The position numbers and the translations under genes were made by a program. From Streptomyces sp. NBC_00335 (GTDB lineage Bacteria > Actinomycetota > Actinomycetes > Streptomycetales > Streptomycetaceae), in NCBI RefSeq assembly GCF_036127095.1, contig NZ_CP108006.1, forward strand, positions 62,001 through 126,000: a stretch of 64,000 bases of DNA, in the 5' to 3' direction. The notes below the pieces were generated by a model, which was not told the DNA's origin, searched no databases, and saw nothing but the letters and a program-made list of their open reading frames with translations. Below, piece by piece: positions 93-28,763 of this stretch. Positions within the stretch are counted from its first letter, which is position 1. Every line of letters begins with the position of its first letter.

Positions 93-120
93 GGAGACAG
101 TGTTCCACTAAGGGAAACAA
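93..120 (+). promoter_or_regulatory. Regulon operator upstream of the flavin reductase operon
   Basis: The left part (93-106, GGAGACAGTGTTCC) is a near-palindrome. After a 6-base spacer comes a third half-site (113-118, GGAAAC), which abuts the ATG at 120. The same arrangement occurs at 7335, 21323 and 27970, which suggests one shared regulator. The inverted GGAA half-sites resemble IclR-type operators, but the regulator is not in the window. The third half-site also serves as the ribosome-binding sequence if translation starts at 120. Confidence 0.65.
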
Positions 121-1481
121 TGACATGCGGGGGTGCGATGGCCGTCGTCATCGATGAGACGACCTTCCGTCAAGTACTGTCCCGGTGGCCCAGCGGCGTG
201 GGGATCGTGACCACGGCCGGCGAAGACGGCTGGCACGGCATGACGGCGAGCTCGTTCAGCAGCGTCAGCCTCGCACCGCCTCTCGTCCTGGTCTGCCTGG
301 ACCAGAGGATTCGCTCCCACGATCTCCTCCTGCGCAACGGCGTGTTCGCCGTCAACGTCCTCGGCCGGGACCACCTCGCCCTGGGCCGCAGGTTCGCGGG
401 CATGGAGCCAGGCGTCACCGACCGCTTCGCGTCGGGAGACTGGCTCCCCGGCGCCACCGGCAGCCCCGTGCTCACGGACTCGGCCGCATGGGTCGACTGC
501 CGCGTGCTGCACCGCTACCCCGGCGGCGACCACACCATCTTCCTCGGCGAGGTGGTGGCGGCGGGAGTACCGCGCATCACCTCTCCGCTGCTGTTCCACT
601 CGCGCTCCTGGGGCCAGCTCGCCGATCCGCTTCCCGACCGGGTCGATCTGGCCGACTCCGGGCTGACCGACTCCGGGCTGACCGGCTCCGGGCTGGCCGG
701 TGCGGCCGCGGGGCCCCGGGACGCCCGCCTGACCCAGGTACTGCGACGGGCAGGCATCAGGGTGCGCCTCGGGCACCTCGGCGGCGAACGCGGACAAGGT
801 GCCGCGGCCGAGGGCGGGGGCGACGGCCTCGGCTGCACCTCGGTCCACGTCGCCGACGCCGCGGCGGCCGTCCGCGCGGCCGCAGCCGGCTCGCCCGCGG
901 TCGAGCTCACCATCACGGCGGACGGCCACGGCACCGCCGCCGCCGACACGGTCCGGGCGATACGCGGGGCCGGGCATCCGGACACCCTTGTCGTGGCCCG
1001 GGTACGCGATGCGCTGCAGCCGGGGCTGGCCCGGGCCTGCCTGCTGACGGTGCAGCGGCTGGCCGCCGCCGGCTGCGGTGAGATCGTCCTCGAAGAGCCG
1101 GCCGAGGGCTGCCACGACACGGACGGCGCCTCGCCCCTGGAGCTGCGCCGGCTGCTCCAGGACGCGATCCCCGAGGCGGGCCCGGTCCCCCTGCGCCTCG
1201 CGTTGCGCGACCACCACGGCCTCGGCCTGGTCAACGCCCTGACCGGGATGAAGAGCGGGGTCCGCTGCTTCGACACCCACTTCGGCGGCCACGGCGGCCT
1301 GTTGTCCACCGAACGGCTGGTGCTGCTCTGCTCCCGCATGAACGTGGCCGCCCCACTCGACATCGCGGCCCTGCGCGCCCTGCGCGGCGGACCGGGCGTC
1401 CTGCGCAGGCAGCAGCGCCCGGCACCCGTGCCCCACTCCCCTGCCCAGACGGTCTCCTCCCGTGTCCCGGAATCCCAGTAA
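120..1481 (+). CDS. Flavin reductase domain fused to a degenerate HMGL-like domain
   Basis: The 453-residue protein begins with a flavin reductase (HpaC/FMN-binding split-barrel) domain at about residues 13-170, recognisable from FRQVLSRWPSGVGIVTT and the following MTASSFSSVS. Such domains use NAD(P)H to supply reduced flavin to a partner monooxygenase. A repetitive linker (DSGLT units) leads to a C-terminal region resembling HMG-CoA lyase/isopropylmalate synthase TIM barrels, ending in a GV-CFDTHFGGHGG motif. The usual N-terminal RDG motif is not visible and the metal-binding HxHD is replaced by ALRDHHG, so this half may be non-catalytic. The start could be ATG 120 or ATG 138. I chose 120 because GGGAAA precedes it at good spacing. 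It is first in an operon with the acyl-CoA-dehydrogenase-fold protein, a plausible flavin-consuming partner. Confidence 0.75.
   Translation: MTCGGAMAVVIDETTFRQVLSRWPSGVGIVTTAGEDGWHGMTASSFSSVSLAPPLVLVCLDQRIRSHDLLLRNGVFAVNVLGRDHLALGRRFAGMEPGVTDRFASGDWLPGATGSPVLTDSAAWVDCRVLHRYPGGDHTIFLGEVVAAGVPRITSPLLFHSRSWGQLADPLPDRVDLADSGLTDSGLTGSGLAGAAAGPRDARLTQVLRRAGIRVRLGHLGGERGQGAAAEGGGDGLGCTSVHVADAAAAVRAAAAGSPAVELTITADGHGTAAADTVRAIRGAGHPDTLVVARVRDALQPGLARACLLTVQRLAAAGCGEIVLEEPAEGCHDTDGASPLELRRLLQDAIPEAGPVPLRLALRDHHGLGLVNALTGMKSGVRCFDTHFGGHGGLLSTERLVLLCSRMNVAAPLDIAALRALRGGPGVLRRQQRPAPVPHSPAQTVSSRVPESQ
651..698 (+). repeat. Three 15-bp tandem repeats coding a domain linker
   Basis: About three copies of a unit close to GACTCCGGGCTGACC encode repeated DSGLT/GSGLA pentapeptides. 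They sit exactly between the flavin reductase domain and the HMGL-like domain of the fusion protein, so they act as an expandable linker. Confidence 0.7.
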
Positions 1482-1494
1482 GGAGTCACCGCCG

Positions 1495-2778
1495 ATGACC
1501 ACGCACCAGCTCACGGGCGCGCAGCTCGTCGACCGTATGACGGCCGCCGAGCGGGCCCGCGCCGAGCGCGTCGAATCCGTGCTGCCCGCCCTTCGCGAGG
1601 CGGCCGAGGAGGCCGACGCGAAGGCCGCCTTCCCGGCGGGCCACACCGCGCTGCTGAGGGAGGCGGGGCTGCTCGGCCTCGTCGTACCCGAGGAGTTCGG
1701 CGGTCTCGGCGGAGGTCTGCGCGACCTCGCGGCGGCCACCTTCGCCATGGGGACGGCCTGCCCGTCCACGGCGCTCGCCTTCTTCTTCCACAACACCAGC
1801 GCCTCGCGCGGTCTCCTGCCCCTGGAGGCCATCCGCGCGGGCCTGTTCACCAAGGAGGAGATCCCGGTCGTCACGGCCTTCGCCGAGCGCGTGCTGACGA
1901 CGATGGCGGGGGGCTCCTGGCTCGCCAACTTCGCCAGCGAGTCCGTCAAGAGCTCGGCGGCGAACATCTCCATCGCGACCACCGCCACGCGCGGCGAGGG
2001 CGGCTGGGTCCTGTCCGGTGAGAAGTCCTTCGGCTGCGCCACCGGAGTCGCCGACCTCTATCTGGTCACCGCCCGGCTCGACAAGACGACGACCGCGGAC
2101 GGGCTGGCCATGTTCCTCGTCCCGCGGGACGAGGCCGGGGTCTCCTCCCGCCCGCCGTGGAACGGGCTCGGCATGCGCGGCAGTGCCAACCACGGCATCC
2201 GGCTCGACGAGGTCTTCGTGGCCGACCGGGACGCGCTGACCGTGCCGGGGGCCTTCACCCGCATGCTGCAGGTGAGCCGCGGCAGCTTCGTCGGCAACCA
2301 GCTCGCCATCGCCGCCGTCTACACCGGCGCGGCGCAGGCCGCGTACGACTACACGCTCGGCCAGTTGACGCGCAAGACCTTCGCCGACACGGGCAGGCCC
2401 ATCGCCTCCTCGCCCATGCACCAGGTCCTCATCGGCGAGATGACGCAGAACCTGGCGACCGCCTACCAGTGGCTGCGGCGCCAGCTGGAACTGGAGACCT
2501 CCGAGCCGCCCATCAGACCCAAGTCCGAGGTCTTCAGCCAGTGGCGGCTGGGCAAGGGTGCGGTCACCGAAGCCTGCTTCGCCGTCGCTCTCGGCGCCCT
2601 GAAGGCATCGGGTACCTCCGAAGCACGCCTGGACGGAGTCATCGGCCGGACCCTGCGCGACCTGGCCATGGGACTGGTCATGACCTTCCCCGCGGAGCGC
2701 GGTCGGCTGGAGGCGGCGAAGATCGCCACCGAGGCCCAGGAGAACGCGCTGTTCGCGACCTTGGGGGAAACCCAGTGA
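1495..2778 (+). CDS. Acyl-CoA-dehydrogenase-fold flavoprotein, possibly a monooxygenase
   Basis: The 427-residue protein has the acyl-CoA dehydrogenase fold: an N-terminal helical part with LLREAGLLGLVVPEEFGG, a middle barrel with GWVLSGEKSFGCATGVADLY, and a C-terminal helical bundle. Dehydrogenases of this family oxidise acyl-CoA thioesters, while group D flavin monooxygenases (HpaB/DszC type) share the fold and need free reduced flavin. The typical GTSE-type motif near the C-terminus is absent (PAERGRLEAAK instead), and the gene follows a flavin reductase, so a two-component monooxygenase is a serious alternative. ATG 1495 has AAGGAG upstream. The next gene overlaps its stop codon (GTGA). 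Confidence 0.75.
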   Translation: MTTHQLTGAQLVDRMTAAERARAERVESVLPALREAAEEADAKAAFPAGHTALLREAGLLGLVVPEEFGGLGGGLRDLAAATFAMGTACPSTALAFFFHNTSASRGLLPLEAIRAGLFTKEEIPVVTAFAERVLTTMAGGSWLANFASESVKSSAANISIATTATRGEGGWVLSGEKSFGCATGVADLYLVTARLDKTTTADGLAMFLVPRDEAGVSSRPPWNGLGMRGSANHGIRLDEVFVADRDALTVPGAFTRMLQVSRGSFVGNQLAIAAVYTGAAQAAYDYTLGQLTRKTFADTGRPIASSPMHQVLIGEMTQNLATAYQWLRRQLELETSEPPIRPKSEVFSQWRLGKGAVTEACFAVALGALKASGTSEARLDGVIGRTLRDLAMGLVMTFPAERGRLEAAKIATEAQENALFATLGETQ

Positions 2779-4304
2779 CCTCCCCGAGCCGTCTTCCCGA
2801 GGCTGCCGGCCACGACGTCCCGCTGCCGGTCACGAGCGACTTCGTCAACGGCGTGTGGCGGCCGTGCACGGTGCGCCTCGGCTTCGATCTGGAGAACCCC
2901 GACACGGGCGAGCAGGTCCGCCCGGCATTCGGCAGCGCCGCCGACCGCATCGACGCGGCGCTGACGGCGGCGGCCGCACTGCACCGTTCGGGTGCGTGGG
3001 CCGGTCTCCCGGACGAGGAGCGAGCCGACGCGCTGGAGGCCGCGGCCGCGGCCGTCGAGCAGGCCGCGGAGCGCATCGTGACGGTGGAGGCCTTCGGCAC
3101 CGGCGTGCCGCTCACCCAGACCGCCGGGCTGGGCGTCATCCTCTCCGGGGCCTTCCGGATCGCGGCCGCCCAGTTGCGCGGCGGACTGCTGGAACGCACG
3201 GCCACCGCCCCGGGCGGCCGCCCCGTGCGCGTACGGCGCGCCGCGCTCGGACCGGCCCTGTGCGTGCTCCCCTACAACGCCCCGGCGCCCATGGCGGCCC
3301 ACAAGGCGGCCAGCGCGCTCGCCGCGGGCTGCCCGGTCGTCATCAAGGCGCCCGAACTCGTGCCGTACGGAACCCAGTTGCTGGTGGAGGCCGCCGCGCG
3401 GGGGCTGGCGGCGGCGGGAGCACCCCCAGCCGTCCTGCAACTGCTGCACGGGGACGCCGGGACGGGGGCCCTCCTCGTGTCCGACGAGCGCATCCGGGTC
3501 GTCTCCTTCACCGGCGGCACCGAGGCCGGCCGGAAGATCGGCGCCGCCTGCGGCCTGGCGCTCAAGCCCGCCCAACTGGAACTGGGCGGCAACAATCCGC
3601 TCCTCGTGCTGCCGGGCGCCGACCCCGAGGTCGCCGGGCGGATGGCCGCCGAACTGCTCACCACCCTCAACGGTCAGTGGTGCCGGGCGATGGGCAGGCT
3701 CGTCCTGCCCGCGGAGCTGGCACAGGACGTCCTGGATGCCACCGGCCGCGAACTCGCCGCGCTGCGGGCGGGCGACCCGCTGCTCGCCGGCACCGGCTAC
3801 GGACCACTGGCGCACTCCCGCCACCACGCCGCACTGAGCGCGGGTGTGAAGGCCCTGACCTCGGCCGGCGCCACGGCACACGCCTGGACCGGGATACCGG
3901 AGCGCGGCAGCTTCTTCACCCCGCTGCTGATCACCGGGGCCGCCGAGGAGTCCACCCGTCGCGAGCTGTTCGGCCCCGTGGCCGCCGTACACACCTACGA
4001 CCGGGAGGAAGAAGCCCTCTACCTGGCCAATTCCACCGGCTACGGGCTCGAGGGGTACGTGTGCGCCGCCGACCCCGATGACGGGTTGCGCGTGGCCGCC
4101 GGCATCTCCGCCGGGGAGGTCAAGGTGAACGGCTCCTCGGTGATGAGCCTGCATCTGGACACGCCCCGTCCGGCCTGGGGCCTGTCGGGTCTGGTGGACG
4201 AGGGAGGGGCCGAGACGCTGCTGCACTTCACCGGTACCCGGGTGACGGGCGTGGAGGCGGGCTTCGCCCTGCACACGGCACGCGGGCACGGGGAGCAGCG
4301 GTGA
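2775..4304 (+). CDS. Aldehyde dehydrogenase
   Basis: The 509-residue protein is an NAD(P)-dependent aldehyde dehydrogenase, the family that oxidises aldehydes to carboxylates. The Rossmann segment around PYNAPAPMAAHKAASALAAG, the FTGGTEAG turn, the ELGGNNP motif with the general-base glutamate, and the nucleophilic cysteine in NGQWCRAMGR are all present. A GTG start overlaps the preceding stop codon, so it is translationally coupled. In the context of this island it could oxidise an aldehyde released by ring or side-chain cleavage, or phytenal from phytol. The substrate cannot be read from sequence. Confidence 0.88.
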   Translation: MTSPSRLPEAAGHDVPLPVTSDFVNGVWRPCTVRLGFDLENPDTGEQVRPAFGSAADRIDAALTAAAALHRSGAWAGLPDEERADALEAAAAAVEQAAERIVTVEAFGTGVPLTQTAGLGVILSGAFRIAAAQLRGGLLERTATAPGGRPVRVRRAALGPALCVLPYNAPAPMAAHKAASALAAGCPVVIKAPELVPYGTQLLVEAAARGLAAAGAPPAVLQLLHGDAGTGALLVSDERIRVVSFTGGTEAGRKIGAACGLALKPAQLELGGNNPLLVLPGADPEVAGRMAAELLTTLNGQWCRAMGRLVLPAELAQDVLDATGRELAALRAGDPLLAGTGYGPLAHSRHHAALSAGVKALTSAGATAHAWTGIPERGSFFTPLLITGAAEESTRRELFGPVAAVHTYDREEEALYLANSTGYGLEGYVCAADPDDGLRVAAGISAGEVKVNGSSVMSLHLDTPRPAWGLSGLVDEGGAETLLHFTGTRVTGVEAGFALHTARGHGEQR

Positions 4305-5497
4305 CGGCCTCCCCGAAGGCACCTCCCGCCGACCGGGTGCTGGTGGTGGGGGCGGGCCCGGTCGGCCTGACGGCCGCGCTGGTTCTGGCGCGGCAAGGAG
4401 TGCCCGTCACCGTCCTCGAGGCGGGGTCGGAGCTCGCGGCCGAGTCGCGTGCCTCCACGTTCCATCCGCCCACGCTGGAGATGCTCACCGCACTGGGTGT
4501 GGGGGACGCACTGCTCGCGCGCGGTCTGGTGGCGGACTCCTTCCAGTTCCGTGACCGGCACGAGGGGGCCCTGGCGACGCTGGACCTGTCGCTCCTGGCC
4601 GCGGACACCCGTTTTCCGTTCCGGCTCCAGTGCGAGCAGAACAAGCTGACGCCCCTCCTCCTGGACGCGCTGGAACGCTTCCCGGGCACCGAGGTGCGCT
4701 TCGGGGCGCGCGTGGCCGGAGTGGAGCGGACCTCCCGGGGCATCTACGCGGTGCTCGGCGACGGGAGCCGGGTTCAGGGGTCCTGGCTCGTGGGCGCCGA
4801 CGGGGCGCACTCCGCCGTACGGCAGTCGGTCGGCGCCGAGTTCCACGGGATGACCTACCCGGAGCGGTTCCTCGTCGCCTCGCTGGACGAGGATCCGGGG
4901 ACCGTGCTGCACGATCTGGCTCCCATCGCCTACGTGCTGGATCCCGACGAGTGGATGGTGCTGCTGCGGACCCCCGACCACTGGCGGGTCCTGCTGCCCA
5001 CCCCGGAGGGCACGTCCGATGCGGCCGAGCTGCTGCGGCTGCCCCGCAGGCTGCTCGACATCACGAGGGACGTACGGGGGCCGGCCATCGCCCATGCCAG
5101 CCTCTACCGCGTCCACCAGAGGGTGGCCGGCACCTTCCGCAGCGGACGGGTCCTGCTGTGCGGCGACGCCGCACACGTCAACAATCCGCTGGGCGGCATG
5201 GGCATGAACAGCGGCATCCACGACGCGGTCCTGATCGGCCGCGCTCTGGCGGACCTCCTGACGGGCGAGGGGTCCGAGGACGAGCTCACCGACTGCGCCG
5301 AGGCACGCCGCGCCTGCGCACTGCGCTACGTCGGGGCGGAAACGCACGCGAACTGGACGCGGCTGCGCACCCGGGATCCGGCGGAGCGGGCCCGGCTCGT
5401 GGCGGAGCTGCGGGCCACGGCGGCGGATCCCGTGGCGGCCCGGCGGTCGCTGCTGCGCAGCTCGATGATCGATTCGCTGCGCGGTGTCCGGTGGTAG
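4301..5497 (+). CDS. FAD-dependent aromatic-hydroxylase-type monooxygenase
   Basis: This 398-residue protein belongs to the PHBH-like FAD monooxygenases (class A), which hydroxylate aromatic or heteroaromatic substrates using NAD(P)H and oxygen. The N-terminal FAD-binding VVGAGPVGLTAALVLARQG, the middle VGADGAHSAVRQ (DG motif) and the C-terminal LLCGDAAHVNNPLGGMGMN (GD motif) are all intact. The GTG start overlaps the aldehyde dehydrogenase stop by four bases. It may act on pyrrole-derived or bilin intermediates of the proposed pathway, which is inference from neighbours. Confidence 0.85.
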   Translation: MTASPKAPPADRVLVVGAGPVGLTAALVLARQGVPVTVLEAGSELAAESRASTFHPPTLEMLTALGVGDALLARGLVADSFQFRDRHEGALATLDLSLLAADTRFPFRLQCEQNKLTPLLLDALERFPGTEVRFGARVAGVERTSRGIYAVLGDGSRVQGSWLVGADGAHSAVRQSVGAEFHGMTYPERFLVASLDEDPGTVLHDLAPIAYVLDPDEWMVLLRTPDHWRVLLPTPEGTSDAAELLRLPRRLLDITRDVRGPAIAHASLYRVHQRVAGTFRSGRVLLCGDAAHVNNPLGGMGMNSGIHDAVLIGRALADLLTGEGSEDELTDCAEARRACALRYVGAETHANWTRLRTRDPAERARLVAELRATAADPVAARRSLLRSSMIDSLRGVRW

Positions 5498-6978
5498 CGG
5501 CGCCGCGGGCGGACGGGAGCGGGCCGGACATCACCGTGGCCGATCCGGCCTTCACCTCCCGCACCGTGGGAAGCGTCCGGTCCCACACGGCGGCGGAGGT
5601 GGACTCCGCTGTGGCGGCCGCGTCCACCGCGGCGCCCGGCTGGTCCGGTACGTCCGCGGTGGCCAGGGCCGCGGCGCTGGCCAGGATCGCCGACGGCCTC
5701 GAAGCCGCGGCGGCGGAGCTCTCGGAGCTGCTCGCGCGGGAGTCCGGAAAGCCGCTCGCGGACTGCCGGGGAGAGGTGGGGTACGCGTGTGCGGTGCTGC
5801 GCTGGTACGCCGCCGAGGCCCCGCGGCTGCTGGCGCCGCACGTGGTCGATGACACCCGGGGCCGGCTGGAGCGGCGGTACCGGCCGTTCGGGGTGGTGGC
5901 CGCGCTGACCCCGTGGAACGCCCCCGTGATCCTGACCGCCGTGAAGCTCGCCCCCGCCCTCGCCGCGGGCAACACCGTGGTCGTCAAACCTTCGCCGTTG
6001 GCCCCTCTGGCCGTCTCCGCCTTCCTGGAAGGCGCGGCCCGGGAGCTCCCCGAGGGTGTGGTCCGGGTGTGCCACGGACACGCCGAGGTCGCGTTGCGGC
6101 TGGCGGGTCACGGGGAGGTGGGCAAGCTCTCGTTCACCGGCGGGGCAGTGGCCGGCCGCGCGGTCGGCGCGGCGGCCGCCGCGGCGCTGACGCCGACCAC
6201 GATGGAGCTCGGCGGCAACGATGCCGCGGTGCTGCTGGACGACGCCCCGCTGACCGAGGCGGACATGGACCGGCTGGTCATGGCGAGCTTCGCCACGGCC
6301 GGTCAGGTGTGCATGGCCGCCAAGCGGGTCTATGTGCCGCGGGCCCGGCTGGGGCAGTTCGTGGAGCGCTATGTGGCGGCGGCCGCCCGGGTGCTGCGGC
6401 TCGGCGACCCCCTGGCCCCGGGTACCACGGTGGGGCCGGTGATCTCCGCACGGGCCGCGGTCCGCGTCCGCGGCCTGATCCGCGACGCCCGGAAGCGCGG
6501 CGGCAGCGCCGTCGAGCTGGGGACCGTACAGCCCGGCCTGGATGTGGAGGGTGGGCATTTCGTGCGACCGACGCTGCTGCTGGGGCTGCGGGAGGATGCC
6601 CCTCTGGTGTGCGAGGAGCAGTTCGGACCGGCGCTTCCGGTGCTGGCGTACGAGGGCGTCGACGAGCTCGTGGAGCGCGTCAACGCGGGGCCGTACGGTC
6701 TGGCGGCATCCGTGTGGAGCGCCGACGAGACACGGGCCTTCGAGCTGGCGGCGCGGCTGGACGCCGGCTTCCGCTTCGTCAACACCCACAACCGGACGGG
6801 GATGGCGCTGCGGGCCGCTTTCGGCGGGGTCAAGGGCAGTGGGCACGGCCGCGAGTACGGGGCCGAGGGCTTGATGGAGTACGTGCAACCGGTGCTCTCT
6901 CACGCACCCGCCGCCTTCCGGGCGGGGGGCGCGGGCATGGCTCCGGGCGCCTATCCGGGCGGTGGTCCGGGGACCTGA
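5491..6978 (+). CDS. Aldehyde dehydrogenase (vanillin/salicylaldehyde dehydrogenase type)
   Basis: The 495-residue protein is a second aldehyde dehydrogenase, distinct from the one at 2775. It shows the WNAPVILTAVKLAPALAAGN substrate/NAD region, LSFTGGAVAGRAVG, MELGGNDAAV with the catalytic glutamate, and ATAGQVCMAAKRVYV with the nucleophilic cysteine. The GTG at 5491 overlaps the end of the monooxygenase gene, making it the fifth gene of the operon. It ends four bases before the convergent Dabb gene. The tail after about residue 460 is glycine- and proline-rich and probably disordered. Confidence 0.87.
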   Translation: MVAAPRADGSGPDITVADPAFTSRTVGSVRSHTAAEVDSAVAAASTAAPGWSGTSAVARAAALARIADGLEAAAAELSELLARESGKPLADCRGEVGYACAVLRWYAAEAPRLLAPHVVDDTRGRLERRYRPFGVVAALTPWNAPVILTAVKLAPALAAGNTVVVKPSPLAPLAVSAFLEGAARELPEGVVRVCHGHAEVALRLAGHGEVGKLSFTGGAVAGRAVGAAAAAALTPTTMELGGNDAAVLLDDAPLTEADMDRLVMASFATAGQVCMAAKRVYVPRARLGQFVERYVAAAARVLRLGDPLAPGTTVGPVISARAAVRVRGLIRDARKRGGSAVELGTVQPGLDVEGGHFVRPTLLLGLREDAPLVCEEQFGPALPVLAYEGVDELVERVNAGPYGLAASVWSADETRAFELAARLDAGFRFVNTHNRTGMALRAAFGGVKGSGHGREYGAEGLMEYVQPVLSHAPAAFRAGGAGMAPGAYPGGGPGT

Positions 6979-6982
6979 GGCC

Positions 6983-7267
6983 TCAGGGCTCCAGGTGGTC
7001 GACCACGGCACGGTCGGCGAGCAACGGGCCCAGCCACGAGGCCAGTCGACGGTGTTCGGGGTGGCTCTGGTAGGCGACGAGTTCCCCGGCGTCCGCGTGG
7101 CGGGTCGTGAGGACGAGGTCGTACGAGAGGTCCGAGCCGGTGACGTCGAGGCCGACGCTCAGGGACCGGATCTGCGGCACGGAGCCGTCCAGACGCCGCA
7201 ACCGTTCGGCTGCCTCGGGGGCATGGGCGGGATCGGTGAACCGCATGAGAACTACGTGCACCAGCAC
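6983..7267 (-). CDS. Dabb (stress-responsive dimeric alpha/beta-barrel) domain protein
   Basis: This is a 94-residue protein starting at GTG 7267 behind AAGGAG. The start VLVHVVLMRF and the internal SYDLVLTTRHADAGELVAYQSHPEH are typical of Dabb proteins, small ferredoxin-like folds that dimerise into a barrel. The same general fold is used by IsdG-type haem-degrading monooxygenases, EthD proteins and cyclases, so a role in handling a small ring product is possible but unproven. It diverges from the nitrilase gene across the operator at 7335 and converges with the aldehyde dehydrogenase gene. Confidence 0.8.
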   Translation of the reverse strand: MLVHVVLMRFTDPAHAPEAAERLRRLDGSVPQIRSLSVGLDVTGSDLSYDLVLTTRHADAGELVAYQSHPEHRRLASWLGPLLADRAVVDHLEP

Positions 7268-7334
7268 GGCATTTGCTCCTTCCGGTCGACGACTTCTCCC
7301 CCTGTCGCGGGAGGGCTCGGCGAGTGTATGTTCG

Positions 7335-7362
7335 GGAAACACTGTTCCGCTAGAGGAACCAA
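7335..7362. promoter_or_regulatory. Regulon operator between the divergent Dabb and nitrilase units
   Basis: GGAAACACTGTTCC (7335-7348) is a near-perfect palindrome. It is followed by a 6-base spacer and a third half-site GGAACC ending just before the ATG at 7362. It is the best-conserved copy of the motif shared with 93, 21323 and 27970. Its place between divergent genes suggests that both are controlled by it. Confidence 0.75.
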
Positions 7363-9119
7363 TGGAGTTCGCCATGGACGAAGCGCGCACGTTCCGTGTC
7401 GCGGCTGCCCAGTTCGAAGTGGGCCGGGACCGCAAGGCCAATCTGGCCGCCTGTGTCAGGGCGATCGACGCCGCAGCGGAGCAGGGCGCGATTCTCGTGG
7501 TCCTGCCGGAGTTCTGCAATCACCTTTCCTGGTACGACGACCGCGAGCAGGCCCTCACGGCCGCGTGCCGGCCGGAGGACGACTTCCTGGCGCCTGTGGC
7601 GGAACGCGCCGCGCACCACGGCATCTACGTCAAACTGCACGTCACCCTGGCCTCCGGGGTTCCGGGAGCCGAGCGCATCACGGCCGCGAGCCTGCTCTAC
7701 GGGCCGGACGGCGTGCTGGCCGGGGCGGCGGACAAGCAGGTCCTGATGGGCAGCGAGAACGACCACCTGGACCCCGCCGCCGATGTCGGCCCCGTCATCG
7801 ACACCGCTCTGGGTCCGGTGGGCCTGTACTCCTGCATGGAGGGGGTCATCCACGAGGTGTGCCGCGGACTCGCCCTGCGCGGCGCCCACGTACTGCTCAA
7901 CAGCCTCAACTCCTTCGCCCTGGACGAGGCCGCGCTGCACATCCCGGTGCGCGCCGCGGAGAACAAGGTGTGGGTGATCGCGGCCAACAAGGTGGGCCCG
8001 CTGCTCCCGGCGGACCGGATCGGCACGATCAGTGCCGCCATGGGGGTGCCGCCCGAGGCCCTCGACGGTGCGGGCGAAAGTCAGATCGTCGCCCCCGACG
8101 GAAGGGTCGTCGCCAAGGGGCCTCGGCGGGGGGAGGCCCTGGTGGTCGCCGACATCCGGCCGGCCGACGCCGCCGACAAGCGTCGCCGGGACGGCACCGA
8201 CGCGTTCGCGGTGCGCCGGCCCGCGCTCTACTTGCCGATCGCCTCCCCGCCCACCCCCGCCCCCGCCTTCGCCGGGTCCCGCGCCGAAGAGGTCGTGGCC
8301 GCGGTCGTCCGGCCCGCCGGCAGCGGCCGCCCGGCCGTCGAGGACGCCGCGCGGCTGGTCCGTCTGGCCGCGGGACAGGGGGCGCGCCTGATCGTGCTGC
8401 CCGAACTCTTCTGGCACGCGGGTGGCGTCCTGCCCGATCGGCAGCGCCCGGACCCGCAGGACGCCCAGGACGTTCTCGGGACCCTGCGCACCTCCCTGGA
8501 GGGCAGCGGCGCACACCTCGCCTTCACCCTCCCCCTGCCTACGGGCCACGCCGGCGTGCTGCTCGACCGGCACGGCCCGGTGCTGACGCAGCACCAGCTG
8601 CATGACGGCGTCCGCCACCGGGGCTGGGCCCGGGCGGGCACGGCACCGGCGCTGCTCACCCACGACACACCATGGGGTCGCGTCGCGGTCGTCCTGGGCG
8701 ACGACTCCGTCCACCCGGAAATCCTGCGCCTCGCCGCGCTCCGGGGAGTCGACACCGTGGCCGTCTGCCTCGGTGCGACCGAGCCCTGGGAGCCGGCCCT
8801 CGGCCTGCCCGAACGGGCGGCGGAGAACCGGATGAATCTCGTGGCCGCGGGCCACGGCTGCGGCGCCCTGCACGCGCTGCCGGTGGAGTTCGGCCTGTGG
8901 CGCTCCCGCGACGCCGCCTTCGACGGCACCATCAGCACGCCCGCCAGCACCCCGGCGGGCCCCGGCCTGACCCTCGCTCCCGTCCGCCCCCGCCAGGCCG
9001 AGAAGCGCCTGGTCTCGCGCGGGACGGACCTGGTCGACGGCCGCCCCTGGAAGCTGCTGGGCGCCCTGGTGGCGCCCCGGCCCTCCGCCCCCGTAGCGCA
9101 CCCCCGCCCCGGTCAGTGA
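7362..9119 (+). CDS. Tandem nitrilase-superfamily amidohydrolase, second domain degenerate
   Basis: The 585-residue protein contains two carbon-nitrogen hydrolase domains. The first (about 11-280) has a full Glu-Lys-Cys triad: LPEF (Glu50), ADKQVL (Lys125) and GLYSCMEG (Cys158). The second (about 295-560) keeps LPELFWHAG but has VVLGDDSVHPE where the nucleophilic cysteine should be, so it should be inactive and may be regulatory or structural. Members hydrolyse nitriles, amides or carbamoyl groups. In the proposed pathway an amidase could open maleimide-derived amides from pyrrole rings. ATG 7362 abuts the operator, and ATG 7374 is an alternative. It opens a ten-gene operon. Confidence 0.8.
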   Translation: MEFAMDEARTFRVAAAQFEVGRDRKANLAACVRAIDAAAEQGAILVVLPEFCNHLSWYDDREQALTAACRPEDDFLAPVAERAAHHGIYVKLHVTLASGVPGAERITAASLLYGPDGVLAGAADKQVLMGSENDHLDPAADVGPVIDTALGPVGLYSCMEGVIHEVCRGLALRGAHVLLNSLNSFALDEAALHIPVRAAENKVWVIAANKVGPLLPADRIGTISAAMGVPPEALDGAGESQIVAPDGRVVAKGPRRGEALVVADIRPADAADKRRRDGTDAFAVRRPALYLPIASPPTPAPAFAGSRAEEVVAAVVRPAGSGRPAVEDAARLVRLAAGQGARLIVLPELFWHAGGVLPDRQRPDPQDAQDVLGTLRTSLEGSGAHLAFTLPLPTGHAGVLLDRHGPVLTQHQLHDGVRHRGWARAGTAPALLTHDTPWGRVAVVLGDDSVHPEILRLAALRGVDTVAVCLGATEPWEPALGLPERAAENRMNLVAAGHGCGALHALPVEFGLWRSRDAAFDGTISTPASTPAGPGLTLAPVRPRQAEKRLVSRGTDLVDGRPWKLLGALVAPRPSAPVAHPRPGQ

Positions 9120-9128
9120 AGGAGTGAC

Positions 9129-10939: not shown

Positions 10940-10988
10940 TCTCCGCCCCTTCTTGCCGAACCGTCATGAACCGCGAGGTGCCCCACCG

Positions 10989-12173: not shown

Positions 12174-12177
12174 GCAC

Positions 12178-18677: not shown

Positions 18678-18719
18678 CAAGCAGTCCGTTCTTCTTGGCC
18701 GTCTTCGGCGAGTACTGGC

Positions 18720-21348: not shown

Positions 21349-21351
21349 GTC

Positions 21352-21972
21352 TCAGGCGTGCAGGGCAGGCCGTGCCTGGTCACGCCGCACAGCGGCGAGC
21401 AGACCCGCCAGCATCATGGCCTCCCCCAGGTTCCCCAGCGGCGGCGCCGCGAAGGCCGCGGCCGAGGCCGCGAACACGGCGAAGGCGCCGAGGGCGATCG
21501 CGGGTGTCCCTCCGCGGATCCATGCGGCAGCCCCGATCAACAGGAGCAGCACGATCGCCAGGACGGCGGCCACCGGGAAGCCTCCCGGCTCGGCGTCCGC
21601 GTAGCGCAGGGTGTCCGCCCAGTGGCGGGGCAGCAGATGCAGGCCCGGCAGGGTGGTGACCGTACCGAGCACGGCCAGCGCGCCGGCGGCGGCCCACGCG
21701 GCGCCGAGGGCGTTGCGGCCGGCGCGCAGGGCGAGGGCGGCGCACGGCACGACGAGCGGGGTGCCCAGGGCGTGGACGACGAAGCGGCCGGCGCTCAGTG
21801 CCTCCAGCAGCCGACCCTCACCCAGCAGGGAGCCTGCTGCCACGACGGCGGAGTCGTAGGCGAGGGCGCAGCCGAGGAGGCCGGTGAGCCGGCCGGCCGG
21901 GCCCGTACGCCATGCGGCGGCGGCGAGCAGGATCTGGAGGGTGGCCAGCAGGGCCAGCCCGGCGGAGATCAC
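21352..21972 (-). CDS. Polytopic membrane protein
   Basis: The 206-residue protein has about six hydrophobic helices (GLALLATLQILLAAAA, PLVVPCAALAL, AVLAIVLLLLIGAAAWI, LGAFAVFAASAAAFAA) and short loops. The family is not recognised. Its GTG start overlaps the stop of the acyl-CoA ligase gene by four bases, so the two are co-translated. It is similar in size and helix number to the membrane protein at 14770 but I see no clear sequence match. Confidence 0.6.
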   Translation of the reverse strand: MISAGLALLATLQILLAAAAWRTGPAGRLTGLLGCALAYDSAVVAAGSLLGEGRLLEALSAGRFVVHALGTPLVVPCAALALRAGRNALGAAWAAAGALAVLGTVTTLPGLHLLPRHWADTLRYADAEPGGFPVAAVLAIVLLLLIGAAAWIRGGTPAIALGAFAVFAASAAAFAAPPLGNLGEAMMLAGLLAAVRRDQARPALHA

Positions 21973-23771
21973 CGGGCTGCCTCACCGCGCCGGTAGAGCG
22001 CCTCGATCCGTTCGGCGTACCGGGCGGTGACCGCGGCGCGCCGGACCTTGAGCGTCACGGTGAGCTCGGGTCCGCCGGGCGTCCACGGCTCCGCGATCAC
22101 CTCGTGGACACGGATCCGTTCGGGCCGTGAGAGGCGGGTGTTGGCGTCGGCCACGGCTCGTGCGACGGCTTCCGCGAGGGCGGCGGCGAGTTCGGGGTGC
22201 ACGTCGAAGGGCTCGGCGGGGGTGATGCCCTCGCGGCGGGCCCAGGCGGCGACCGCTTCCGGGTCGGGGACGAGGAGGGCGACGTTGAAGGGCCTCGCGT
22301 CGCCGATGACGACGGCGTGGGCGATCAGGGGCGAGGATTCCTTCAGGACCCCTTCGATGCGGGCGGGGGCCATGTTCTTGCCGCCGGTGCTGATGATGAG
22401 GTCCTTCTTGCGGTCGACGATGCGGACGTCTCCGTCGGCGTCGAGGGCGGCGATGTCCCCGGTGTGCAGCCAGCCCTCCGCGTCGATGGTCCGCGCGGTG
22501 AGCTCGGGCTCTCCGCGGTAGCCGCGCATCAGGAAGGGGGCCCGTACGAGGAGCTCGCCGTCGGCGGCGATCTTGACCTCGGCACCGGGGACGGGTCGGC
22601 CGACCGTTCCGGGCCGCTGTCCGCCGGGGGGTGCGATCAGGGCGATGCCGCTGAGCTCGGACATGCCCCAGGCGTCGGTGAGGGGCAGTCCGAGCGCCTG
22701 GAAGAACTCCTGGAGCCCCTCGGGCGCGGGCGCGGCTCCGGTGATGCAGATCCGGGCACGATCGAGTCCGATGCGCCGGCGCAGTGCGCCGAGGACGCCG
22801 TCGGCCTCCTCCAGTTCCTTGTGCTCCGGCGCGGTCATGGTGCCGGCGGACCGGCGGTGGGCGAGGCGGCGGCCGGTGGCGAGTGCGTTCTCCACGAGTT
22901 CGCGAAGTGCCGGGTCGGTGTCCGCGAGCGCGCTCTCCAGGGCGGCGCGCGTGCGCTGCCAGACGGCCGGGACGGCCCCGAAGAGGGTGGGCCGCACGAA
23001 GGTGAGGGCCTCGGGCAGCCGGGACATGTCGTCCAGACAGGTCAGACGGGTTCCGCAGAGGAGGTGGGTGTAGTGCGAGCCCCACCGGTCGGCGATGTGC
23101 GCGGCGGGCAGGAAGGAAATGTGACTGTCCCGGCTGCTGACCTCCAGCACCTGCTGGGTGCCGGCGAGTTGGCTCATCATGGCGCGGTGGGTGATCTCGA
23201 CGGCCTTCGGGCGGCCTGTGGTGCCCGAGGTGTGGATCAGGGTCACGAGGTCGTCGGGCCCTACGTCGCCGAGGGCCGAGGCGAGTTCGAACGGGCCGGG
23301 CGCGCTCGCCTCGACGTCGCCCAGCACGAGCACGTCGTCCTGCTCGGGGTGTCCATCGCCGTCGACGGTGACCAGGTACATGACGGCCGTGCCGGTGACG
23401 GCGACGCGCAGCACGGGCAGGAAGCGGCGTTCGGTGACGACCACACGGGCAGCGGTACCGGCCAGCAGGTCGTGTATCTGGTCCGCGGGCAGGCTGTTGT
23501 AGAGGGAGAACGGCACGGCACCCAGGTGGAGGGCCGCGCAGTCGGTGACGTGGAATTCGGGCCGGTTGGTGAGCATGAGGGCGACCGGTTCGCCCCGCCG
23601 GACGTCGAGGTGGCGCAGCGCGGCGGCGACGGAGGCGACGCGGTCGGCGTACTGGGCCCAGGTCAACGCGGTGCCGGTGAGGGTGAGCAGGGCGGGTTCC
23701 TGCGGCTGGGCTGCCACGGTCCGCTGGAAGGCCTCGCAGAGGGTGGCGGGCGGATCGGTCGCGGGCGTCAT
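21969..23771 (-). CDS. Long-chain fatty acid-CoA ligase (AMP-forming)
   Basis: The 600-residue protein is an ANL-superfamily ligase. It shows the P-loop LIHTSGTTGRPKAVEIT, the FLPAAHIADRWG segment typical of long-chain (FadD15-like) members, DAWGMSELSGIAL, GWLHTGDIAALDADGDVRIV, and DRKKDLIISTGGKNMAPARIE. It activates a long-chain acid with ATP and CoA. In this island the obvious substrate is phytanic/phytenic acid from the phytol tail. ATG 23771 has GAGGAG upstream. The ORF stays open further upstream but the sequence there is out-of-family shadow. Confidence 0.87.
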   Translation of the reverse strand: MTPATDPPATLCEAFQRTVAAQPQEPALLTLTGTALTWAQYADRVASVAAALRHLDVRRGEPVALMLTNRPEFHVTDCAALHLGAVPFSLYNSLPADQIHDLLAGTAARVVVTERRFLPVLRVAVTGTAVMYLVTVDGDGHPEQDDVLVLGDVEASAPGPFELASALGDVGPDDLVTLIHTSGTTGRPKAVEITHRAMMSQLAGTQQVLEVSSRDSHISFLPAAHIADRWGSHYTHLLCGTRLTCLDDMSRLPEALTFVRPTLFGAVPAVWQRTRAALESALADTDPALRELVENALATGRRLAHRRSAGTMTAPEHKELEEADGVLGALRRRIGLDRARICITGAAPAPEGLQEFFQALGLPLTDAWGMSELSGIALIAPPGGQRPGTVGRPVPGAEVKIAADGELLVRAPFLMRGYRGEPELTARTIDAEGWLHTGDIAALDADGDVRIVDRKKDLIISTGGKNMAPARIEGVLKESSPLIAHAVVIGDARPFNVALLVPDPEAVAAWARREGITPAEPFDVHPELAAALAEAVARAVADANTRLSRPERIRVHEVIAEPWTPGGPELTVTLKVRRAAVTARYAERIEALYRRGEAAR

Positions 23772-23821
23772 GAGGGCTCCTCGGGAGGGGAAGAAGGGCC
23801 GCCGGGGCCCTCGTAGGGGTC

Positions 23822-24472
23822 TCAGGCCTTGGGGGTTGACGTTTCCCGGGCGGCGCTGCCGAAGGTGAGGCCGAAGTCGTGCAGGGTCAGGCTGAACAGT
23901 GGCGGCCCGTCGACCGGGAGCCTGAGCGTGCCGCGGGGCGGGATCCGCCAGGTGGCCCGGGCCAGGCCGACAGCGCTGCGGCTGCGCACGCGGCTGGTCT
24001 TCAGGCGTCCGTCGAGTTGCTGGGCGAGGCGGTAGGACACCGGCCAGCGTCCCGGCAGCCTGGTTGCGGGCCGGAAGGACGCGGAGCACAGGGTGGCGCC
24101 CCCGGTCCGGGCCGTGGCCTCGATGCCCCCGCGGCCCTCGCCGCGGATGAGGTCGAAGTCGGCCAACTCCTTCGGGATACCCCAGAGTTCACGGCCTCCG
24201 GCCATGGACGGCGGGCTGTCCACCCAGATGTCGGTGATGGTGACCCGGGGCCGCAGGCCGTCGCGGACCAGCACGGCGGAGAGGAGCTCGTTGTAGTGCA
24301 GGACGCTGTCGTTCTCGTAGACGACCCAGGCCGCGCCCATGAGGGCCCGGCCCGCGAGGGTCACGGGCCGGACACCGTACGGCAGCGGTGGCAGCGACCG
24401 GCGCGGTACGAGCCACAGGGAGAGGTGCATCTGCCCCGCGAGGTGCCAGGGCTCAGGCGGGTACGTCGGCAT
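23822..24472 (-). CDS. Acetoacetate decarboxylase-superfamily protein
   Basis: The 216-residue protein has the ADC-like fold signature WVVYENDSVLHYNELLSAVL, then VDSPPSMAGGRELWGIPKEL. Acetoacetate decarboxylase uses the first lysine of a PKK pair for a Schiff base, with the second lowering its pKa. Here the pair is PKE, so the Schiff-base lysine may remain but ordinary decarboxylase chemistry is doubtful. Family relatives act as aldolase-dehydratases or cyclases on keto acids. Its start lies inside the end of the GMC oxidoreductase gene (20-base overlap) and it is followed after 50 bases by the acyl-CoA ligase. Confidence 0.72.
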   Translation of the reverse strand: MPTYPPEPWHLAGQMHLSLWLVPRRSLPPLPYGVRPVTLAGRALMGAAWVVYENDSVLHYNELLSAVLVRDGLRPRVTITDIWVDSPPSMAGGRELWGIPKELADFDLIRGEGRGGIEATARTGGATLCSASFRPATRLPGRWPVSYRLAQQLDGRLKTSRVRSRSAVGLARATWRIPPRGTLRLPVDGPPLFSLTLHDFGLTFGSAARETSTPKA

Positions 24473-26327
24473 CGGGGTCCTGCCCTTCGGGCGATCGGGG
24501 CCCGAACCGCAGCGCGGCGGGGGCGTGTGCGGGGACGGCGGGGCGGCGCGGCGGTACGGGATCCACCCCGCGGTAGGGCGCGCCGGGCCGGGGTCGGGGG
24601 TCGGGGTCGCCGCTGTTGGGCCACAGGGCGGTCGCGCGTTCGGCGAGTGCGGTGATGGTCAGGGAGGGGTTGACTCCGAGGTTGGCGGAGATGGTGGAGC
24701 CGTCGACGATGTGGAGTCCGGGGTGCCCGTGGACCCGGTGGTAGGGATCGACGACTCCGTGCGCGGGGTCGGCGGCGACGGTGCACCCGCCGATGAGGTG
24801 GCCGGTGGTGGGAATGTCGAACAGGTCTCCCCAGGTTCCGCACGCCAGGGCGTCGTTCTGCCGTGCGGCGGTGCGGGCGAGGCGGTGACCGGCCGGTATC
24901 CAGGTGGGGTTGGGGGCGCCTTCGCCGGGCTCGCTCGTCAGGCGCGGCCCCAGCAGGCCTCGGCGCAGCCGGGTGGTGAGGGAGTTGTCGGCCGACTGCA
25001 TGACCAGCAGGACCACCGATTGCTTGGCCCAGTTCCGCGGGCGGTGCAGTGCGAGCAGGCTGCGGGCGTTCGCGGCCATCGCGGCGAGGCCGGCCAGGAG
25101 CCGTGGACGGCCGGGGACCGGGTCCGTGAGGATCGCGCCGAGCAGGGCGAGGAGATTGCTGCCGGGCCCGTACCGGACGGGCTCCACGTGGGTGGCGTCG
25201 TCGAGGTGCACGGAGGACGTGATGGCCACGCCCTGGGTGAAGTCGGCGCCGGGATCCTTGGAGCGTACGGCGAGGATCGCCTCGGAGTTCGTCCGCGTCA
25301 GGTGTCCCAGGCGCGGTGAGAGGCCGGGCAGGGTGCCGGCGGCGCGGAGCCGGTGGAGCAGGCGCTGCGTGCCGAGGGCTCCGGCGGCGAAGACGACGTG
25401 CCGCGCGGTGGTGGTGCGCGGGTCGGGGCGCAGGGTGCGTCCGGTGCGGACGGAGGTGACGGTCCAGCCCGCACCGGCGCCGTCGGCGGTGTTCGGGCGG
25501 GCATCGGCGTTCGGGCCGGCATCGGTGTTCGGGCGGCCGTCGGTGTTCGGGCGGGCATCGGCGTTCGGGCGGACCTCGGTGACGGTACGGTCGGCGACGA
25601 CCCTCGCACCGGCCGCTTCGGCCAGTCCGAGATAGTTCTTGGGCAGGGTGTTCTTGGCGTTGTGCCGGCACCCGGTCATGCACGCCCCGCAGTGCAGGCA
25701 GCCGGCACGGGCGGGACCGGCGCCACCGAAGTAGGGGTCGGGAAAGGTCGTTCCGGATGCGGTGCCGGGCTTCCCGAAGTGCACGCCCACGGGGGTGGGC
25801 CGGAAGGTGTCCTCGCGGCCCATCTCCCGGGCGGCCTCCTTCAGCACCCGGTCGGACGGGGTGAAGCGGGGGTTCGGCGTGACCCCGAGCATGCGCCGGG
25901 CCTGGTCGTAATAGGGGGCCAGCTCGGTGCGCCAGTCGGTGAGGGATGCCCAGTGGGTGCCCTCGTAGAACGGCGGGGGTGGATCGTAGAGGGTGTTCGC
26001 ATAGCCGAGGGATCCCCCGCCGACGCCCGCACCGGTCAGTACGAGCACCCTGCCCAGGAGGGTCATCCGCAGGATTCCACGGCAGCCGAGGCGCGGGGCG
26101 AAGAGGTAGTCGCGCACCCGCCAGGAGGTCCGGGGGAAGTCCTCGTCGGCGAAGCGACGGCCGGCTTCGAGGACGGCGACGCGGTATCCCTTCTCGGTCA
26201 GGCGCAGGGCGGTGACGCTGCCCCCGAAGCCGGACCCGATGACGAGCACGTCGACGTCGTCGGGTGGCAGGGACCCTTGGGCAGCAGCCCCCGGTGGAAC
26301 GTCCTGGGGTGGCGAAGAGGTTGGCAT
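24453..26327 (-). CDS. GMC-type oxidoreductase (cholesterol oxidase-like)
   Basis: The 624-residue FAD enzyme has VDVLVIGSGFGGSVTALRL at its N-terminus, GAGVGGGSLGYANTLYDPP, a cysteine-rich CLHCGACMTGCRHNAKN segment, and C-terminal GHLIGGCTVAADPAHGVVD and NLGVNPSLTITALAERA motifs. GMC enzymes of this type oxidise alcohols, including sterols and long-chain alcohols, so phytol to phytenal is an attractive role. The cysteine cluster could bind an Fe-S centre. An 18-bp tandem repeat inserts a PNTDAG-like linker mid-protein. GTG 26330 is immediately followed by ATG 26327; the ATG has better spacing from GGGAG. It heads a four-gene minus-strand operon. Confidence 0.82.
   Translation of the reverse strand: MPTSSPPQDVPPGAAAQGSLPPDDVDVLVIGSGFGGSVTALRLTEKGYRVAVLEAGRRFADEDFPRTSWRVRDYLFAPRLGCRGILRMTLLGRVLVLTGAGVGGGSLGYANTLYDPPPPFYEGTHWASLTDWRTELAPYYDQARRMLGVTPNPRFTPSDRVLKEAAREMGREDTFRPTPVGVHFGKPGTASGTTFPDPYFGGAGPARAGCLHCGACMTGCRHNAKNTLPKNYLGLAEAAGARVVADRTVTEVRPNADARPNTDGRPNTDAGPNADARPNTADGAGAGWTVTSVRTGRTLRPDPRTTTARHVVFAAGALGTQRLLHRLRAAGTLPGLSPRLGHLTRTNSEAILAVRSKDPGADFTQGVAITSSVHLDDATHVEPVRYGPGSNLLALLGAILTDPVPGRPRLLAGLAAMAANARSLLALHRPRNWAKQSVVLLVMQSADNSLTTRLRRGLLGPRLTSEPGEGAPNPTWIPAGHRLARTAARQNDALACGTWGDLFDIPTTGHLIGGCTVAADPAHGVVDPYHRVHGHPGLHIVDGSTISANLGVNPSLTITALAERATALWPNSGDPDPRPRPGAPYRGVDPVPPRRPAVPAHAPAALRFGPRSPEGQDPDADVPA
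25491..25580 (-). repeat. Five 18-bp tandem repeats inside the GMC oxidoreductase gene
   Basis: Five consecutive units near GTTCGGGCGGGCATCGGC encode hexapeptides such as RPNTDG and GPNADA on the minus strand. The reading frame is kept, so the array adds a flexible loop of about 30 residues after the TVTEVRP strand. Copy number may vary between strains. Confidence 0.85.
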
Positions 26328-27964: not shown

Positions 27965-27969
27965 GTTTG

Positions 27970-27995
27970 CGGAACACTGTTTCACAGAACGGAAC
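27970..27995 (+). promoter_or_regulatory. Regulon operator upstream of the second isomerase-like gene
   Basis: CGGAACACTGTTTC (27970-27983) followed by a GGAAC half-site at 27991-27995 repeats the island operator. It lies right after the flavin monooxygenase stop and 25 bases before the ATG at 28020, so the last gene has its own regulated promoter. This copy marks the right edge of the regulon. Confidence 0.65.
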
Positions 27996-28019
27996 GAGCC
28001 TGCGGACTGGAGTATCCGA

Positions 28020-28763
28020 ATGACCAACGCCGTGGGACCACGGGCCGTATTCGGGGTCATCGTGCCGAGTACGAACACCGTGGTGGAGCACGACTACTGG
28101 GGCGCACGGGTCCCCGGCATCGCCTTCCGGGCCGGGTCCATGCACATCCCGCACCCGGCCATGGACAACGACCGCGACTTCGAGGCCCTCCTCCTCCAGA
28201 TCAGAGCCTCCATCGACGTCGCGGTTCGCGACGTCCTGACCGCGGAGCCGGACCGGATGGTCATGGGGATGTCCGCGGAAACGTTCTGGGGCGGGGTCGC
28301 CGGCAATGCCGATTTCGAACGCCGCCTGCGCGAACGCACCGGCCTGCCGGTCACGACCGGCGCCACTTCCTGCCGCGCCGCCCTTCGTACGCTGGGATGC
28401 CGGCGCATCGCGGTGTTCTCCCCCTACCAGCCGATCGCCGACCGCGAGGTGCACCGCTTCTTCACGGAAGCCGGTTTCGACGTGGCGGCCGTATCGGGAC
28501 TGCGCTGCTCGACCGCCATGGACATCGCCCGGGTGGGACCGCAACGCATCTTGGAGATGGTCAGCGAACTGGACGACCCCTCCGTCGAGGCGATCGTGCA
28601 GGTCGGAACGAACCTCTCTTTCGTCTCCCAGGCCGACACCCTCGAATCCGAGCTAGGCAAACCCGTCGTCGCCATCAACGCGGCGACGCTTTGGCACGCA
28701 CTGCGCGAGCACGGTTTCGACGACCGGATCACGGGCGCGGGTCGCCTGCTGAGGGAACACTGA
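28020..28763 (+). CDS. Second maleate isomerase-family protein lacking the catalytic cysteines
   Basis: The 247-residue paralogue of the protein at 15472 shares FGVIVPSTNTVVEHDYWG, VMGMSAETFWGGVAGN, RRIAVFSPYQPIADREVHRFF and KPVVAINAATLWHALREHG. The second motif reads VQVGTNLS, so even the nearby cysteine of the first copy is gone. Both copies therefore share a cysteine-independent chemistry or bind rather than isomerise. CTGGAG precedes the ATG. The two genes are probably paralogues that diverged to handle differently substituted pyrrole fragments. Confidence 0.72.
   Translation: MTNAVGPRAVFGVIVPSTNTVVEHDYWGARVPGIAFRAGSMHIPHPAMDNDRDFEALLLQIRASIDVAVRDVLTAEPDRMVMGMSAETFWGGVAGNADFERRLRERTGLPVTTGATSCRAALRTLGCRRIAVFSPYQPIADREVHRFFTEAGFDVAAVSGLRCSTAMDIARVGPQRILEMVSELDDPSVEAIVQVGTNLSFVSQADTLESELGKPVVAINAATLWHALREHGFDDRITGAGRLLREH

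Follow-up and report, generated by a model that had tools for sequence, protein, structure and literature searches.

Plants are thought to stop chlorophyll breakdown at phyllobilins, in the PAO/phyllobilin pathway, where a Rieske oxygenase and RCC reductase (RCCR) have an ester-type hydrolase alongside. PMC7318184 puts the chlorophyll made and destroyed in the order of 10^12 kg per year. FDBRs belong to the same protein superfamily as RCCR, and heterotrophic bacteria host pre-PcyA clusters, whose genes encode bilin-binding globins, V4R and iron-sulphur proteins (PMC10151467). Staygreen, a different protein family, likewise acts in plant chlorophyll breakdown and has members in heterotrophic bacteria; the available text of PMC8531759 reports homologues in non-photosynthetic bacteria and describes no cluster like the one presented here. 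A genome search for Staygreen (PF12638) gave no match, and no control responded either. Among open-access full texts, which include few subscription papers, I found no bacterial cluster of this composition, no paper joining RCC reductase with actinobacteria, and none that ties pheophorbide a oxygenase to an actinobacterial gene cluster, in agreement with the sequence-only reading, which knew of no such cluster. Nor did these texts describe bacterial genes for completing chlorophyll breakdown, a role for which this locus offers some 15 candidates.

The window (64,000 nucleotides of Streptomyces sp. NBC_00335) contains an island of genes (Table 1) with a core of g8, g10, g11 and g12, in which the Rieske gene g10 lies between two RCCR-superfamily genes, g8 and g11. 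Related loci were gathered with g8 as the query. Of 209 stretches confirmed in this way, the top 80 were used; this set under-samples distant contexts and spans 17 genera as counted from the titles. The order g8-g10-g11-g12 is kept in 76 of these 80, leaving out Planomonospora (L058, without g12), and monooxygenase, amidase and C-C-lyase genes flank it; the RCCR-containing catabolic island proposed earlier is supported. The ordered core is also present in two genomes from another class, and carriers include Streptomyces, Nonomuraea, Actinoplanes and Micromonospora. The gene order, the family and fold assignments and the conservation across genera are observations, and on this sequence evidence the island is a conserved actinobacterial set of catabolic-type genes. 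Locus gene calls come from a purpose-made GC-position caller, which places starts only approximately and fuses or overlooks some genes (g7-g8 merge in L012), and the 10 kb flanks are too short to reveal the outer genes. Spread by plasmid was set aside, tblastn with g8 and g12 having returned no plasmid record.

Table 1. Genes of the island, with window coordinates and the number of loci (among the best 80 of 209) in which each was found.
Gene	Position	Strand	Assignment	Loci of 80
g1	138..1481	+	flavin reductase, HpaC/RutF-like domain (PF01613, 147.7 bits)	30 (many flanks end short of g1)
g2	1495..2778	+	acyl-CoA-dehydrogenase-fold flavoprotein	51
g3	2775..4304	+	aldehyde dehydrogenase (PF00171, 295.7 bits)	70 (g3 and/or g5)
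g4	4337..5497	+	class A FAD monooxygenase (PF01494, 209.4 bits)	65
g5	5491..6978	+	aldehyde dehydrogenase (PF00171, 426.8 bits)	70 (g3 and/or g5)
g6	6983..7267	-	small Dabb-domain protein (PF07876, 65.4 bits)	52
g7	7362..9119	+	tandem carbon-nitrogen hydrolase, amidase/nitrilase superfamily (PF00795)	77
g8	9129..9932	+	RCC reductase homologue 1, core	80 (query, by construction)
g9	9929..10939	+	alpha/beta hydrolase, PETase/cutinase- and chlorophyllase-like	76
g10	10989..12173	+	Rieske non-haem iron oxygenase, VanA-type, core (PF00355, PF19112)	78
g11	12160..12969	+	RCC reductase homologue 2, diverged, core	
g12	12966..13940	+	double-calycin protein, DUF3598/BFA1 fold, core	
g13	13937..14773	+	short-chain dehydrogenase/reductase (PF00106, 127.7 bits)	78
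g14	14770..15471	+	probable membrane protein; no family over cut-off	54
g15	15472..16218	+	Asp/Glu racemase superfamily, AMDase/maleate isomerase-like (PF17645, 72.7 bits)	77
g17	17700..18680	-	PETase/chlorophyllase-like hydrolase, signal-like N-terminus (PF12740, 37.6 bits; PF07224, 31.1 bits)	30 (tblastn, some onto g9 homologues)
g18	18795..20165	-	MFS transporter (PF07690)	8 (flanks hardly extend to g18)
g21	21969..23771	-	acyl-CoA ligase, FadD11-like	8 (only L009 close, 64%)
g23	24453..26249	-	GMC oxidase nearest cholesterol oxidases, Streptomyces extension	
g25	28080..28763	+	second Asp/Glu racemase superfamily protein (PF17645, 90 bits)	

The two RCCR-like proteins reported earlier stand, by different routes. 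The suggested HMM check succeeds for g8 (PF06405, 55.3 bits) and fails for g11 (18.0 bits) against the Pfam cut-off of 24.9; a model of g11 built from 20 sequences has the RCCR/FDBR fold. The g8 profile (A1) matches plant RCCR at E 7.5e-17 and is closer to RCCR than to FDBRs, and g11 matches RCCR and bilin reductases equally by VIA. A protein search with A5, aimed at plant RCCRs, gave 454 matches, of which the best 120 all carry PF06405, the named organisms being actinobacterial. One acidic position compared is that of AtRCCR E154. There, g8 has an Ala, not an acidic residue (18/18 in A1, 11/11 in A5), and g11 has an Asp in 20/20; the equivalent GtPEBB residue is D99, whose role is described in PMC6755814. 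At the position of GtPEBB D219 / AtRCCR D291, g8 has D234, conserved in 18/18 (A1) and 11/11 (A5), and g11 has D235, conserved in 20/20, near this position in an alignment that is off by two.

The Rieske oxygenase g10 carries both the Rieske and the mononuclear iron motifs, and C46, H48, C65 and H68 as well as D161, H164 and H169, which I take to be the iron ligands, are invariant in the 19 sequences of A4. A PAO-like Rieske oxygenase had been proposed; the Rieske oxygenase is indeed in the core, but falls outside the PAO family, as VanA_C takes the place of the PaO C-terminal domain (PF08417), absent from g10 at E 0.1. A true PAO is therefore excluded for g10. The genome search also gave no PF08417, the same search having responded in 3 of 14 controls and exceeded the cut-off in one. 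Beside g11, the sequence of g12 matched no Pfam family at E 0.1 and no PDB sequence at E 5. Because the profile search against PDB sequences gave nothing, the structure route was taken, and a model built from 21 sequences has the double-calycin fold, with ∼8–10% identity to the DUF3598/BFA1 proteins of cyanobacteria and plastids. That g12 binds a tetrapyrrole is a guess.

The island thus resembles the plant pathway in its Rieske oxygenase, RCCR-superfamily reductases and accompanying ester-type hydrolase, but its Rieske enzyme is VanA-type without the PaO domain, it has two diverged RCCR homologues instead of one, and its extra cleavage and lyase genes suggest mineralisation. It differs from the pre-PcyA clusters in possessing a Rieske oxygenase, a calycin and catabolic-type enzymes.

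The accompanying flavin monooxygenase, amidase and isomerase-family genes expected from the sequence-only reading have candidates in g2, g4, g7, g15 and g25. The best PDB matches of g2 include the FAD-dependent oxidoreductase 3m9v, nitrososynthase and DszC, and it is therefore probably a monooxygenase; relatives of g2 (62%) and g4 (48%) occur in genome G540. The g3 and g5 proteins are homologous, and their shared count therefore covers either gene. The C-terminal stretch of g1 is faintly HMG-CoA lyase-like (NF004283, weak, E 0.0008). The N-terminal domain of g7, which was also found in G540 and G582, retains E50, K125 and C158; across 75 aligned homologues, g7 included, the E is present in 68 (7 gapped) and the K and C in all 75.

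Chlorophyllase-like hydrolases had likewise been proposed. Overlapping the g8 stop, g9 (47% to a relative near the G540 cluster) scores 24.4 bits against PF07224, under the cut-off of 26, and its best PDB matches are PET/polyester hydrolases and cutinases; g17 and g19 exceed this cut-off, yet for both the PETase score is higher. For g13, proposed as a chlorophyll b reductase, no NYC1/NOL model responded in Pfam or NCBIfam, and among the best 120 of 4200 homologues the names are generic SDR ones apart from two entries called 'chitin-binding protein'. Of the four proposed plant steps, only the RCCR one is thus backed at family level by these searches. The best PDB match of g15 is the putative maleate isomerase 2xed (E 4.4e-11). 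Both g15 (AMDase 66.5 vs 225, EutA 64.5 vs 318 bits) and g25 (81.2 and 82.3 bits) fall below the equivalog cut-offs, and relatives of g25 (76–82%) lie near Nocardia clusters. Related clusters encode maleate-isomerase-superfamily, isochorismatase-type amidase, mesaconate-type CoA-transferase, citramalyl-CoA-lyase-like and methylisocitrate-lyase-like enzymes, types shared with citraconate/mesaconate/itaconate and nicotinate-type (maleamate, maleate) catabolism but here paired with a tetrapyrrole-type front end. Of ten such proteins compared with NCBIfam, only the HMG-CoA-lyase-like one exceeds its model cut-off.

From these families I infer an order of reactions by which the island would catabolise a chlorophyll-derived tetrapyrrole in full, as a source of carbon and nitrogen, the leading reading, to which I give about an even chance. 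Ester side chains would be removed by g9, possibly also by g17/g19; the macrocycle would be attacked and opened by g10, taking the role of PAO in plants from another family; g11 and g8 would reduce the methine bridges of the ring-opened product, and g12 may bind or hand over a hydrophobic bilin-like intermediate. Its cleavage and oxidation by the flavin monooxygenases (g1/g2, g4), g13 and the aldehyde dehydrogenases (g3, g5) would then give monopyrrolic lactams or alkylmaleimides. The amidase g7, with hydantoinase- and isochorismatase-type hydrolases in distant clusters, would open the imides and release ammonia, g15/g25 would isomerise the substituted maleates, and the CoA-transferase and citramalyl-CoA-lyase-like, methylisocitrate-lyase-like or HMG-CoA-lyase-like enzymes of the relatives' clusters would cut these to central metabolites. 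The island would likely allow its carriers to use chlorophyll, or a ring pigment like it, as food. More tentative, at somewhat under even confidence, is the proposal that heterotrophic Actinobacteria evolved their own full chlorophyll mineralisation, with a non-PAO, VanA-type Rieske oxygenase that opens the chlorin, a diverged RCCR paralogue pair and a plastid-type calycin that process the ring-opened pigment, and pyrroles converted through alkylmaleates to central metabolites. If true, RCCR chemistry would serve as a nutritional pathway outside phototrophs. The island would also put homologues of RCCR, a protein known from plants, into a catabolic-type context in non-photosynthetic bacteria, which bears on the origin of RCCR.

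Instead of chlorophyll, the island could degrade linear tetrapyrroles that derive from haem or are of phycobilin type (biliverdin, bilirubin, urobilins), with the Rieske oxygenase acting on side chains or bridge carbons and no macrocycle being opened, which I consider unlikely. The RCCR fold is common to bilin reductases, and g11 is consistent with this in its equal matches and its two Asp residues; hematinic acid is a product of haem too. The genome has two haem-oxygenase matches, but these are at 3.15 and 6.09 Mb, and the island at 0.06–0.09 Mb. The preference of the g8 profile for RCCR also speaks against this reading, under which there would be less use for the conserved ester-type hydrolase or for another oxygenase.

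Catabolism of a non-tetrapyrrole (an N-heterocycle, a steroid-like compound or a plant aromatic), with the RCCR-fold proteins and the calycin co-opted for another ligand, is also rather improbable in my estimate. It would suit the generic aromatic-catabolism families of g1-g5 and g7, the missing acid in g8, the PDB relatives of g10 (SxtT/SxtDIOX, methylxanthine and dicamba demethylases) and the cholesterol-oxidase-like gene linked in Streptomyces. A biosynthetic or pigment-tailoring cluster acting on a host-made tetrapyrrole is very improbable: no core biosynthetic enzyme was seen, and C-C lyases, a CoA-transferase, amidases, aldehyde dehydrogenases and IclR regulators (in 35 of the best 80 of 209 loci) are of catabolic type, against which stand the position within 62–90 kb of the contig end in a Streptomyces-like genome and the scattered distribution, in 4 of 297 genomes of the host family.

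The sequence-only reading had assigned a GMC oxidase and an acyl-CoA ligase to phytol. In Streptomyces flavidovirens (L009), g20-g23 directly follow g15. The GMC oxidase g23, being nearest the cholesterol oxidases, is no more than a candidate for phytol; it scores 554 bits against NF058674 (cut-off 850). Among 15 of the 80 locus genomes, it lies 9–16 kb from g8 in all four Streptomyces and is unlinked or absent in all 11 others, so the proposed phytol genes, as represented by g23, are linked in Streptomyces only.

The window spans bases 62001–126000 of contig 1 in a 9.0 Mb genome of two contigs; genes were called by codon-position GC, and those from 138 to 28763 are numbered g1 to g25. Stop/start overlaps occur at g8–g9, g11–g12, g12–g13 and g13–g14, and g14 and g15 abut. 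Using the RCC reductase (RCCR) homologue g8 as query, I scanned the GTDB genome collection; of the 209 loci confirmed, the best 80, from 17 genera counted by title, were retained, and the closest of these 80 are from Streptomyces. The Rieske oxygenase g10 (78/80), the second RCCR homologue g11 (78/80) and the double-calycin protein g12 (77/80) are present in nearly all of them, as are g7 (77/80), g9 (76/80), g13 (78/80) and g15 (77/80). The complete core (g8, g10, g11 and g12) was found in 77 of the 80 loci, and in 76 it is ordered, on the same strand and within 6 kb. In L012 the core is out of order, with g10 and g12 a few kb away on the opposite strand; L058 lacks g12, and in L019 and L081 a g8 homologue (66% and 62%) is found with the rest of the core missing nearby. 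The L019 homologue adjoins an oligopeptide-type ABC transporter set, relatives of which also lie beside the complete cluster in L041.

Features of the window and their positions
Feature	Position	Description
g1–g25	138–28763	Genes as numbered here
g1–g15	about 138–16218	Island conserved across genera
g8	9129–9932	RCCR homologue 1
g11	12160–12969	RCCR homologue 2
GMC-oxidase block	21969–26249	Acyl-CoA ligase, acetoacetate-decarboxylase-like protein, cholesterol-oxidase-like GMC oxidase
Lipase and esterase	41024–42361 and 46933–48417	Secretory lipase (PF03583) and BD-FAE type esterase
MFS transporter	48183–51014	C-terminal part with three carboxypeptidase-regulatory-like stretches
Terpene synthase	56849–58000	Family 2 protein

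The island is rare among evenly drawn genomes, with 4/297 in the family and 3/396 in the phylum (source genome included in both). In another actinobacterial class the count is 2/247, these being once more G540 and G582, two genomes of 66–68% GC where the same four core genes lie side by side; the G540 region also encodes relatives of g2, g4, g7, g9 and g15. The sequence-only reading had proposed an RCCR-containing, catabolic-type island with a Rieske oxygenase in between, and this is borne out as a conserved and apparently undescribed arrangement. Full-text searches of an open-access library, which lacks most subscription papers, yielded no bacterial cluster of such composition. In two papers on bilin reductases (PMC10151467, PMC13193486), RCCRs and sequences akin to them serve as relatives or as the outgroup, and neither main text contains ‘actinobacter’ or ‘streptomyces’. 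For bacterial Staygreen homologues, PMC8531759 describes the physiological relevance as still unknown.

The two RCCR homologues differ at the acid pair of FDBRs, and therefore probably have separate roles or work jointly. Asp-99 of GtPEBB, described as essential there in PMC6755814, aligns with AtRCCR Glu-154; this position is Ala in g8 (18/18 and 11/11 rows of two alignments), whereas it is Asp in g11 (20/20 rows). The second acid, GtPEBB Asp-219, corresponds to D234 in all 18 and 11 rows of g8, and g11 possesses an invariant D235 close to this site, where the alignment is off by two. Judging from these residues, g8 cannot simply be labeled an RCC reductase.

The favoured reading of the island is tetrapyrrole catabolism, with chlorophyll-derived pigments as the most likely substrate. 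The Rieske oxygenase would open the tetrapyrrole, g11 and g8 would reduce the ring-opened product, and g12 may handle the intermediate; oxidative cutting, imide hydrolysis and lyases would follow. The main rival is catabolism of haem-derived bilins, and the genome does contain two haem-oxygenase matches, but both are megabases away from the island. Next comes co-option of these folds for an unrelated substrate. The plant families assigned earlier, namely PAO for the Rieske oxygenase, chlorophyllase for g9 and NYC1, are wrong or unproven, as is the phytol branch.

The enzyme types in the window and in relatives' clusters would fit, by family chemistry, the breakdown of methyl-substituted maleimides, through hydrolysis to maleamate, ammonia release, isomerisation, CoA activation and C–C cleavage. 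According to PMC7318184, chlorophyll yields hematinic acid both in vitro and in leaves; maleimides were not detected in leaves there, and older reports of them from senescent leaves are cited. The window encodes a flavin reductase and a flavoprotein closest to monooxygenases and acyl-CoA dehydrogenases (g1/g2), a class A FAD monooxygenase (g4), two aldehyde dehydrogenases, one SDR, two proteins of the AMDase/maleate-isomerase superfamily, and a tandem CN-hydrolase retaining the N-terminal Glu-Lys-Cys set. Among the 80 loci, an IclR regulator occurs in 35, a methylisocitrate-lyase-like PEP-mutase-family gene in 20, HMGL in 9 and HpcH/HpaI, so named from homologues, in 8. In five of the 24 loci drawn, the PEP-mutase-family gene separates g3 from g4, and in one it is far off. 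The G540 cluster (L089–L092) is apparently a richer version of the pathway, with CoA-transferase III, cyclase, MmgE/PrpD, hydantoinases A and B, isochorismatase and a luciferase-like oxygenase upstream of the core. The best NCBIfam matches in relatives' clusters fall far short of their cut-offs: methylisocitrate lyase (218.6 vs 354.4 bits), succinate-glutarate and mesaconate CoA-transferases (290.8 vs 750 and 262.1 vs 700) and C–C lyase RipC (161.9 vs 375). The HMGL of G582 exceeds that of its subfamily model (302.3 vs 246 bits).

The flanks of the 80 loci stop 10 kb from g8, so that g19–g25 at the window's spacing are not visible there; in L009 (Streptomyces flavidovirens), g20–g23 directly follow g15. 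I searched for g23, the GMC oxidase, and g8 in 15 of the 80 locus genomes. In all four Streptomyces tried, g23 pieces 78–92% identical lie on the same contig, 9–16 kb from g8, whereas in ten of eleven genomes from other genera the best match (about 55–70%) is on a different contig or megabases off, and the eleventh yielded none. The GMC-oxidase block is thus part of the Streptomyces version, where its earlier proposed place in the island holds. Among curated models, that of cholesterol oxidase comes closest to g23 (554 bits against a cut-off of 850), and phytol, sterol or something else are candidate targets of the block.
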